Below, in pieces: positions 4,989-36,467 of a stretch of 39,772 nucleotides of DNA. A model generated the notes under the pieces. It did not search any database and had not been told where the DNA came from. It saw only the letters and a list, made by a program, of their open reading frames with translations. The translations under genes and the position numbers were made by a program. Position 1 is the stretch's first letter. Each line of letters opens with the position of its first letter. This DNA comes from Candidatus Yanofskybacteria bacterium (GTDB lineage Bacteria > Patescibacteriota > Minisyncoccia > 2-02-FULL-40-12 > IGHO2-01-FULL-4-A): assembly GCA_016181175.1 (NCBI GenBank), contig JACOZV010000003.1:1-39772 (forward strand), given 5' to 3'.

Positions 4989-6542
4989 ATGTCAGTTAAA
5001 TCAAAAGCCGACGAACAAAATCTAAAAACCAACCATTCACCGCGTCCCCCGATTGTGGTTGTTTTGGGTCATGTTGACCACGGTAAAACCTCAATACTGG
5101 ATAAGATCAGGAAAACAAAAGTGGCCGAAAAAGAGGCTGGCGGAATTACACAGCATATCGGAGCTTATCAAGCAGAACACAATGCTAAAAAAATAACTTT
5201 CCTTGATACGCCGGGGCACGAAGCATTCAGTGCGATCCGTTCACGTGGAGCTAAAGTGGCTGACATAGCCATACTCGTCATAGCCGCTGAAGAAGGTGTT
5301 AAGCCACAGACAAAAGAAGCAATTCAAATTATAAAAAAAGCCGAAATTCCATTTATTGTAGCAATTAATAAAATTGATAAAGAGGGGGCTAACCCAGCCA
5401 GAGTCAGACAGGAACTAGCTGAACTAGAGGTACAGGTTGAAGATTATGGCGGAACAGTGCCCGTAATAGAACTATCGGCCAAAAAGGGCAAGGGCATAAA
5501 CGAACTGCTTGAAATGATACAGCTAGTAGCGGAAATGGAAGAACTTTCTGCGCCAATGGACACGCTAGCCAAGGGTGTGGTTATTGAATCGCATATGGAC
5601 GGTCGCCGCGGCTTGGTTGCCACCCTCATTGTTCACGAAGGAGAACTTAAGATAGGCGATTGGGTTTTTGCCGGCAGTGCAACTGGCAGAGTAAAATCAC
5701 TGGATGATTTTCTTGGCAAATCCATAAGCTTAGCCATCGCTTCACAGCCATGCGTAATGCTCGGCTGGGAAACAGCACCAAGAATCGGACAGGAATTCCT
5801 GGTTACTGCCAACAAAGAATCCGCTCAAAAATCAGCCGCGGGTTTAATGCTGGGCGAATCTTTGAATTTATTCGCCAAAGAGATAAGCACCGAAGAGCAA
5901 AAAAACAACAAAAGAACTGCCAATTTAATAATTAAAGCCGATGTGCAAAGCTCTCTGGAAGCCATAGATCAAGTATTGAAAACAATACATTCTGAAGAGG
6001 TTACTTATAATGTAACAAGTTATGGCATCGGATTGATTGGCGATAATGATATTAAAAATGCCAAGGCCACCCAAGCATCCGTAATCGGGTTCCATGTTGG
6101 TATAGACGGTTCTGCAAAACAACTAGCCGAGAGGGACAACATTAACGTCCGGACTTTTGAAATTATTTATGAACTTGTAGAAGCCGCGCGTTCAATCATG
6201 GCCGATCTGCTAGATCCAGAAATTAAACGTATACCACTTGGTAAATTAAAAATATTAGCTACATTTAAAAATACGGGTAAGTCGCAAATAGTCGGCGGCA
6301 AGGTTGTACAAGGCAAATTAGCACGCGGCACAATGATAGACGTTGTAAGGAATGGGGTCATAGTTTCAAATGGAAAACTAGGCCAATTGCAGCACAACAA
6401 GGCCGATGTTGCCGAGGTTAGCGAAGGATTAGAAGCAGGAATAAGGTTTGACATGCAATCACAACCCGCGCCGGCACAATTAATAAGAGAAGGCGACGTA
6501 TTAGAAATTTATCAGGAAGAGAGGATTAAACGAACAATATAA
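4989..6542 (+). CDS. infB: Translation initiation factor IF-2 (short form)
   Basis: GTPase that places fMet-tRNA on the 30S subunit and promotes subunit joining. G motifs are intact: GHVDHGKT (27-34), DTPGHE (73-78), NKID (127-130), SAKKG (163-167). Domains II, III and IV follow. At 517 aa it is much shorter than the usual 700-900, because the long N-terminal extension is absent and the G domain begins about 20 residues in. This is typical of reduced genomes. No Shine-Dalgarno sequence is visible before the ATG at 4989. rbfA follows 28 nt downstream, a common infB-rbfA pairing. Confidence 0.97.
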
Positions 6543-34647: not shown

Positions 34648-34655
34648 GTTAAAAT
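34627..34655 (+). promoter_or_regulatory. Promoter of tRNA-Ser(GCU), inside the topA 3' end
   Basis: -35 TTGAAA (34627-34632), 17-nt spacer, -10 TAAAAT (34650-34655). The spacer differs at about two positions from that of the tRNA-Leu promoter. Predicted start near 34662, 3 nt before the tRNA. Confidence 0.7.
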
Positions 34656-36337
34656 AGGAAAAATGGAGGGGACGCATATCGGCTCGTGCAGAGGTTTGCT
34701 AAACCTCGACCCCGTAAGGGGTCAGGTGGGTTCGACTCCCACTCCCTCCGCAGTATTGGACTGCTCGCGTATAAATGTGCGAGTTGTTCTTTATTTGCGC
34801 TATTTTTGTGAGGTTCTACCCGGCTATGTATTCGCTTTAATTCCTTTGACGCATCTTCAAGATACAAAAGCGGTTTTTCTATGGTAATACTTATCTTTTT
34901 ATCTTTTAGGAGGAGGTCCGACCCTAAATTAGCCAAGATGTTTTTTCTTGTTTCTATCCCGCCATTTTCAAAAGCATCTTTTGCCGTTGTGGCAAATTGA
35001 AACATCTCATCGGCTTTCTTTAGCCATTTGCCTATCCGGTCGCTTGTATCTTTCAGCAGTTCTTCTAGGCGGATTCTTTCTTTGTTGAGGTCGCCCTTCA
35101 TTTCTTTGTATTCTTTGTCTGCTAGTTCTTCGTCAGCGCGCATATTATTAACCCTCTTTATTTTCTCAACGACCGCTTTATACGCCTTTTGGACATTATC
35201 AATAATTTTAGTGATGTTGCCGGCTTCTTTCTTATTCTCCTTTTTATATAAATCTAAAGCCCATTCTGTAAATTCGGGGTAAAGAGCAATTTTGTCTATC
35301 TTTACCCGTATTTGCCTGTTTAACTCTTTTTCCTCAATACATTTTTGGGTGCAATTCGGGTTTTTCTTTTTGCCGCAGTGATAATAAATATAATGGTGGA
35401 CGTTGCCATTTTTCTGCCGCTTGGTTTTTTCTTCGGCTGTTATCATGCCTCTGCACTCACCGCACCTAATCATACCTGTAAAAGCAAATTCGTGGCTTCT
35501 GGGGCGTGGTTTTCCGTCTCGGCCAAGGATTGTTTGTATCTTGTCGTATTCTTCCTCTGCAATCATCGGCTTGTGTATGCCTTTATACCAGTTGCCGCTT
35601 CTGCGAGGATATTCAAACGAGCCGTAATAAAACGGATTGGTAAAAAGATAATAGGTGGCGGTCTTGCTTATTGGCCTGCCGCTAGGCATAGTAAGTCCTA
35701 ATTTTTTGTGTGCTATCTTCTGTATCTGCGGAACGGTATGCGTGCCGGCAAGCATTAGGTCAAATAACTTGCGGACTAAATTAAAGCGTTCCTCATCTGG
35801 TATTATCGTCTTGTCGCCCTTAACAGCATAAGGGTCGTTTTTATAACCTATTGAAGCCGGCGCTGGATAAATGCCGCGTTCAGCTCTGGCGTGTAACCCG
35901 CGCTTAACATTTTGGCTTAAGTCGCGTAGATACTGGTTTGCCATGCCAAATTCTACACTCATCATTAAAACATTATCCGTTGGGTAATAGTCCCTATCGT
36001 AAGCGCGGATATGTTTTATCACTCCCTGTTGTAACATCCAGTTAATACTTCCGCCATCAACCGGGTTTCGGGCCAAGCGGTCTAGTTTCCAACAAATTAT
36101 TCCCTGTGCTTCGCCCTTATGTATTCGTTCTAACATTTGGTTAAAAATCGGCCGGCCCGGCTCTTTAGCCGATTGGGATTCGGATAGTGGTTCGCCTATT
36201 ACTTCTAATCCCTCTTTTTGGGCCAACTTTTTTAATTCGTCTATTTGCGAATCAATGGACAAAACCTGCCGGTCTTCTGATTCGGAAGATTTACGTGCGT
36301 ATAGAAAGTATTTAATTTTCGTTGCGTTAGTATTCAT
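34649..36337 (-). CDS. Large serine site-specific recombinase (integrase)
   Basis: 562 aa. Catalytic resolvase domain (about 8-155) with nucleophile S17 in YARKSSESE and CWKLDRLARNPVDGG; a Recombinase domain (about 170-265, TVPQIQKIAHKKLGLTMPSGRPIS and NPFYYGSFEYPR); a zinc ribbon (CGEC...CGKKKNPNC, about 285-325); a long charged coiled coil (about 340-470). It integrates or excises the element. Its last ~33 residues are the antisense translation of tRNA-Ser(GCU), and the stop overlaps that tRNA's promoter, so the true element-encoded end was probably altered by integration. A pseudoknot-forming leader precedes the ATG at 36337. Confidence 0.93.
   Translation of the reverse strand: MNTNATKIKYFLYARKSSESEDRQVLSIDSQIDELKKLAQKEGLEVIGEPLSESQSAKEPGRPIFNQMLERIHKGEAQGIICWKLDRLARNPVDGGSINWMLQQGVIKHIRAYDRDYYPTDNVLMMSVEFGMANQYLRDLSQNVKRGLHARAERGIYPAPASIGYKNDPYAVKGDKTIIPDEERFNLVRKLFDLMLAGTHTVPQIQKIAHKKLGLTMPSGRPISKTATYYLFTNPFYYGSFEYPRRSGNWYKGIHKPMIAEEEYDKIQTILGRDGKPRPRSHEFAFTGMIRCGECRGMITAEEKTKRQKNGNVHHYIYYHCGKKKNPNCTQKCIEEKELNRQIRVKIDKIALYPEFTEWALDLYKKENKKEAGNITKIIDNVQKAYKAVVEKIKRVNNMRADEELADKEYKEMKGDLNKERIRLEELLKDTSDRIGKWLKKADEMFQFATTAKDAFENGGIETRKNILANLGSDLLLKDKKISITIEKPLLYLEDASKELKRIHSRVEPHKNSANKEQLAHLYASSPILRREWESNPPDPLRGRGLANLCTSRYASPPFFLF
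34665..34750 (+). tRNA. tRNA-Ser(GCU)
   Basis: Acceptor GGAGGGG (34665-34671) pairs with TCCCTCC (34743-34749), G.T at the last pair; discriminator G. Anticodon arm GAGGT-TTGCTAA-ACCTC, anticodon GCT, reading AGC/AGU. Long variable arm GACCCCGTAAGGGGTC; T arm GTGGG-TTCGACT-CCCAC. No CCA. The integrase frame runs through it on the other strand. Confidence 0.95.
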
Positions 36338-36341
36338 AAAA

Positions 36342-36467
36342 CCTTAAAGGGGCGACCTAGTTGCCCAACCACTTGCTCCGAACGGAGTAGTATTGCTGGT
36401 AGATCGCCCCATTAAGGGGAACAATACCAAACAAAAACCGTTCGGGTAGTATGTGGTTATGGGCAAC
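36342..36467 (-). promoter_or_regulatory. Pseudoknot-capable leader covering the recombinase ribosome-binding site
   Basis: Nested helices, given by + coordinates: 36360-36372 with 36453-36467 (2-nt bulge); CCGAACGG (36378-36385) with CCGTTCGG (36438-36445); GTATTG (36390-36395) with CAATAC (36422-36427). The apical loop region 36404-36417 pairs with 36342-36355 at 13 of 14 positions. On the - strand the second segment is TCGCCCCTTTAAGG, with the only Shine-Dalgarno-like AAGG, 4 nt before the ATG. Pairing therefore forms a pseudoknot that would hide the ribosome-binding site. A local CCCC/GGGG hairpin (36407-36410 with 36416-36419) is the alternative. Confidence 0.7.

Follow-up and report, generated by a model that had tools for sequence, protein, structure and literature searches.

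The leader of a large serine recombinase gene in the 39,772-nucleotide window (the whole stretch of DNA analysed, part of contig 3 in the 776-kb genome of a Candidatus Yanofskybacteria bacterium) appears, from its own sequence and that of its relatives, to belong to an undescribed family of cis-acting, 5′-terminal pseudoknot RNAs of Patescibacteria, located mainly on serine-recombinase mobile elements. The recombinase (562 residues, minus strand, 34649–36337, ATG at 36337–36335) matches the Pfam families Resolvase (1.1e-20), Recombinase and Zn_ribbon_recom, and the reported leader spans the gap between the end of the upstream open reading frame (36500) and this start codon. The minus strand from 36467 to 36342 carries the three-part hairpin, P1–P2–P3, described in the initial annotation, which is also the predicted fold of the segment (z = -3.6 versus dinucleotide shuffles). 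From 5′ to 3′ the hairpin runs through P1 and P2, then through an internal loop rich in U, and ends in P3 with the apical loop. The 5′ strand of P1, GTTGCCCA (36467–36460), pairs with 36367–36360, with covariation in all seven tested P1 pairs, and is followed by an inner part, ACCAC (36457–36453), whose partner is 36372–36368; both parts thus face the single P1 3′ strand GTGGTTGGGCAAC (36372–36360). P2 is formed by CCGAACGG (36445–36438) and CCGTTCGG (36385–36378), is paired in 97% of cases and displays changes on both sides in 7/7 pairs. The U-rich internal loop that follows, TTTTTGTT (36437–36430), is conserved in most leaders and reads UUUUUUAUU in most relatives. P3 is built from 36429–36420 and 36397–36388, with both-sided changes in 9/9 pairs. 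An inverted-repeat search of the window reported none of these helices because they are short and interrupted.

The apical loop contains segment A, CCTTAATGGGGCGATCTA (36417–36400), which is complementary to A′, TAGGTCGCCCCTTTAAGG (36359–36342), a strand whose first nucleotide directly follows the P1 3′ strand and which ends 4 nt before the ATG. The pairing of CCTTAATGGGGCGA (36417–36404) with TCGCCCCTTTAAGG (36355–36342) at 13 of 14 positions was found exactly as originally proposed, as was the AAGG lying 4 nt upstream of the ATG at 36337. The complementarity extends further than had been claimed, to 17 of 18 positions (36417–36400 with 36359–36342), a value reached by 0/200 shuffles of the 3′ segment. 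The energy of A:A′ is nominally -20 to -38 kcal/mol and is favourable relative to the local hairpin. A rough estimate of linker lengths suggests that an A:A′ helix of 17–20 bp would be incompatible with a fully closed P3, while one of about 13–14 bp would be compatible. The rival partner within the loop is the local hairpin CCCC-TTAAT-GGGG (36419–36407, with strands 36419–36416 and 36410–36407), proposed earlier as the alternative state. This hairpin is indeed present, and common (59/64 leaders); taken alone it barely exceeds chance, with an observed mean of 3.9 against 3.1 in shuffled sequences, so that its standing as a separately selected state is weak. Both leaders that precede genes other than recombinases carry it in an extended form. 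A′ and the local CCC/GGG hairpin compete for the same strand, which would make a natural switch, albeit one in which the hairpin itself is only weakly supported. The core of A, GGGCGGU, is conserved in most leaders and is complementary to ACCGCCC in the universal decoding region of 16S rRNA; this match may well be a coincidence.

Covariation among related leaders, the comparison by which the pseudoknot had been suggested to be judged, is strong both in P1–P3 and in A:A′. Across 25 leaders the P1–P3 positions hold standard pairs in 93.4% of cells, compared with 62.9% after shuffling, both partners have changed in 25 of 29 pairs, and the covariation score is 0.76 versus 0.21 for shuffled and at most 0.09 for slid registers, values obtained on an alignment that was fitted to the structure of the model and therefore leans towards it. 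The MAFFT alignments A1 and A2 misplaced the helices and were excluded from the analysis. The A:A′ pairing is absent from the covariance model. Its 10 core pairs are kept in 39/39 distinct leaders, compared with 58.8% when strands are swapped between leaders, and all 10 display changes on both sides. As the A:A′ register was itself picked by best pairing, the comparison was repeated with re-optimised non-cognate pairings, which gave a cognate mean of 15.7 versus 10.0, the observed sum being reached in 0/5000 permutations. Judged by these comparisons of sequence, with their strong compensatory change, the pseudoknot between the loop and the region before the start codon is a real and conserved RNA structure.

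The structure was also recovered blindly. Trained on four other leaders, with neither the window nor a pseudoknot term, a covariance model located the window leader at 36467–36335 with 60.7 bits (E = 2.5e-11, 383 whole genomes), and the structure of this leader is thus more than chance. A blind 17-mer pattern run over 84,980 genomes gave 67 matches, against about 60 calculated by chance. The covariance model confirmed 13 of the matching stretches, every one of which precedes a serine recombinase; 10 of these carry titles of Patescibacteria groups and three are titled only ‘bacterium’. A second covariance model found the leader in 27/379 genomes across the phylum and in 18/342 genomes of another class. 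Altogether 69 leaders with the P1–P2–P3 and A:A′ layout were tabulated across Patescibacteria, all but two lying directly before serine recombinases from deeply separated clades, and the leaders of homologous recombinases share the layout while differing in sequence. Four of them (L023, L028, L036 and L045) were found by reading instead of by the model and count as weaker members, L045 having no promoter box. Two further model matches (L079 and L080) were discarded, with no promoter, no recombinase and marginal E values. The genome of the window itself holds a second member (L069, G000:C4:70406-70528, plus strand) before another serine recombinase, 27% identical to that of the window, with its own P1, P2 and P3 and its own loop-to-leader pairing. 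A protein scan of viral contigs returned no relatives of the recombinase; the best matches in plasmid and phage collections were only recombinases of <30% identity and were left out of the leader comparison. Several relatives of the recombinase, among them those of L010, L041, L043, L045, L047 and L055, contain one in-frame stop within the matched stretch. One leader-carrying contig also holds a LOOT RNA (L121, 2440–2561) and another a group I intron (L118, 4266–4627), both on the minus strand.

The leader is precisely placed with respect to a predicted promoter. A predicted -10 box, TATATT (36479–36474, 5/6 versus TATAAT), lies 6 nt upstream of P1, so that the window promoter reads TATATT-N6-G36467; no clear -35 box was seen in the window leader. 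A -10 hexamer stands exactly 6 nt upstream of the first nucleotide of P1 in 30/33 of the leaders first collected, each other offset occurring at most three times, and at this conserved offset in 60 of the 69 tabulated leaders. Because of this fixed spacing, P1 very probably starts at +1. The predicted start, G36467, therefore lies upstream of the entire structure and not downstream of 36417, where transcription would have left segment A out of the RNA. The 3′ side is anchored just as closely, A′ following the P1 3′ strand with no gap in 55/69 leaders and with a gap of 0 or 1 nt in 65/69.

The relation of A′ to the start of translation is looser. In 41/69 leaders no more than 12 nt separate the end of A′ from the start codon. 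It ends mostly 0–12 nt upstream of the start codon in SD-poor lineages, the host of the window included; in SD-using lineages it stops immediately upstream of a good SD, which remains free outside the A′ core. Several leaders have their start codon 20–49 nt downstream. SD-like 4-mers occur in 15% of 196 open reading frames of the window’s genome versus 8% in the control, and before the start in only one of the 33 first leaders. Sequestration of the SD, the principle on which the initial annotation had based its reading, therefore does not hold for the family at large: the host rarely uses an SD, a single early leader carries one, elsewhere the SD is free and some starts are distant. The class of SD-sequestering leaders, with the SD inside the paired segment, was likewise set aside, the SD lying outside the A′ core in SD-using lineages. 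An RNA thermosensor, also suggested at the outset, seems unlikely given the nominal stability of A:A′ and an SD that is not a conserved target.

The reading towards which we lean, if only slightly, is that of a leader that is off by default, in which closure of A:A′ blocks expression, in the window by blocking initiation. Comparison of the sequences shows a predicted transcription start at the first nucleotide of P1 and a single P1–P2–P3 hairpin, whose apical segment A pairs with A′, the strand that continues the 3′ side of P1 and usually ends near the translation start. In a geometry inferred from linker lengths, A:A′ may form a coaxial stack with P1 in which the nick falls at the 5′ nucleotide and the arm is bent back at the internal loops, which the similar lengths of P1 and P2–P3 would permit. 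The closed A:A′ would place a GC-rich helix against the landing site of the 30S subunit, keeping the recombinase off or low by default. Where the start codon or SD lies within about 12 nt, as in the window, closure would block 30S loading. Such direct occlusion cannot work in the at least 11 leaders whose start codon lies at least 25 nt past the A′ core; since the U-tract is also stronger in these leaders with a distant start, A:A′ may serve there as a terminator. A signal, be it a ligand, a host protein or an RNA, would make the apical G-run leave A′ for the local hairpin and so open the gene. The U-rich strand may in addition join the A-U portion of A:A′ in a triple helix, by analogy with SAM-II, which contains a triplex (PMC5352136).

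The stronger U-tracts bring in a transcription attenuator, in which A:A′ would be mainly the hairpin of an intrinsic terminator and P1–P3, with A in the loop, the antiterminator or sensor. The order of A-run, GC stem and U-run fits this design: the four bases after the GC core of A′ average 3.4 U, with U always at position 2, and the tails are stronger in leaders with a distant start codon (mean tail score -3.8 versus -2.8), which would account for the leaders with starts 25–49 nt away. However, many tails read merely UUUU-RG-UU, the U-run of the window is UUU-AAGG-UUUU, and the U residues are mostly explained by covarying pairing with the A-run of A (UGGG/CCA). Attenuation as the main function is the leading alternative to the initiation block, though an unlikely one. 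The sign of the regulation could also be reversed, with the pseudoknot recruiting or positioning the 30S subunit, or shielding the 5′ end, in SD-poor hosts and thereby raising recombinase expression. The rarity of SDs in the window’s genome and the burial of the +1 nucleotide in P1 are consistent with this, and the repZ pseudoknot of ColIb-P9, which activates translation in competition with an antisense RNA (PMC8383071), is a precedent for activation. The same RNA nevertheless occurs with ordinary SDs in other lineages and at variable spacing to the start codon, and a positive element appears improbable.

The repZ system also suggests control by an antisense RNA of the IncI-plasmid type. Here, as in repZ, a mobile-element gene is preceded by a 5′ stem-loop whose apical loop pairs with a segment ahead of the gene start, and the loop sequences often match, by eye, the U-turn pattern; but a -10 box on the opposite strand is not conserved, reaching at most 7/68 leaders at any one offset. 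Unlike IncI, in which an antisense RNA competes with an activating pseudoknot, the leader family has no conserved antisense promoter, and antisense control seems very improbable. Least credible of all is that the inverted repeats, which do adjoin the recombinase gene, are binding sites on DNA for the recombinase or a regulator, since four nested or interleaved helices stay paired while their sequence changes, are registered exactly to +1 and recur upstream of a methyltransferase operon. The probable attachment site lies, moreover, at the other end of the gene, where a tRNA-Ser(GCT) gene predicted by ARAGORN (plus strand, 34665–34751) is overlapped in antisense by the 3′ end of the recombinase gene. 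A tRNA gene occupies the same end in 17/22 other loci with the motif. The leader, at the 5′ end, is therefore not taken to be a serine integrase attachment site. No long direct repeat of the tRNA was found within 60 kb of it, as expected for a serine integrase with its 2-bp core. Another recombinase subgroup (MKYIIYARKST; L002, L011, L012, L030 and L031) shares a sequence of about 90 nt, CACGTTGGAAA...GGCGGGTCTCGGCGACC..., directly after a tRNA 3′ end in several cases, which is perhaps the attachment region. The window’s mobile element apparently extends just past the window (L205, 6475–8069; G000:C3, about 40474–42068), with a gene for a DNA methyltransferase and one for a probable restriction enzyme.

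The leader is not tied to one recombinase lineage. On a tree of 90 recombinases, of which 66 have the leader and 24 lack it, the leader must have been gained or lost at least nine times along well-supported branches, and the proteins most closely related to the window recombinase have no leader. The two leaders before other genes extend this pattern. One (L188, and L204 at about 5927–6073, minus strand) precedes a type III-like restriction-modification operon encoding an N6_N4 methylase and an 854-residue helicase-like protein, on an island where a serine recombinase is encoded as well. The other (L187, 1501–1644, plus strand, with L203) precedes a 57-residue, single-pass membrane-like open reading frame adjoining an XRE-HTH and M78 (IrrE-like) peptidase pair. 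Because the leader precedes different recombinases as well as these genes, a common host signal is likelier than autoregulation by one product. A wider reading, which we offer tentatively as possible and rather short of probable, is that of a phylum-wide, modular 5′-terminal coaxial pseudoknot switch, with +1 at the junction and exchange of the G-run, that senses one common cellular signal and times the expression of recombinases and, once, of a restriction-modification system.

The leader probably works like known pseudoknot leaders, yet it belongs to no class tested. The original statement that no described class is known with this layout for large serine integrases agrees with Rfam 15, no family of which matches the leader: at the gathering threshold the leader was unmatched in the window and in the loci of 16 relatives, where only chance or unrelated hits appeared, and the best sub-threshold match, MIR398 (22.9 of the 55 bits needed), reflects only the A:A′ duplex. 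A search of open full texts on RNA structure in serine integrase untranslated regions and on structured RNAs of candidate phyla likewise found no such leader described. T4 gene 32 and rpsO have 5′ or RBS-proximal pseudoknots that control translation, each autoregulated by one product, whereas the present family precedes unrelated proteins. Intrinsic-terminator attenuators share the A-run, GC-rich helix and U-run but not the interleaving of these strands with another hairpin, and in the leaders the U-run is usually short. There is also a likeness to SAM-II and preQ1-II, H-type pseudoknots near the initiation region with a U-rich strand close to the A/U part of the pseudoknot helix. For SAM-II, a transcription terminator was predicted ahead of one gene and control of translation ahead of another, so that one fold can act on either process (PMC9373788), as the leader may. 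Unlike these riboswitches, the leader is much larger (about 125 nt), with three stacked helices before the loop and P1 at +1, precedes mobile-element recombinases and has no Rfam match.

Its repeated gain and loss beside different recombinases makes the leader resemble a portable expression module. The control of large serine integrases is usually discussed in terms of directionality factors and transcription. If unrelated recombinases throughout a bacterial phylum have a dedicated RNA leader in common, the control of mobile DNA would gain a further layer, and the leader would represent a new family of structured RNAs in organisms for which few regulatory RNAs are known. The recurrence of the leader, with its compensating changes, before many recombinase genes points to an undescribed RNA switch whose probable role is to hold mobile DNA quiet.
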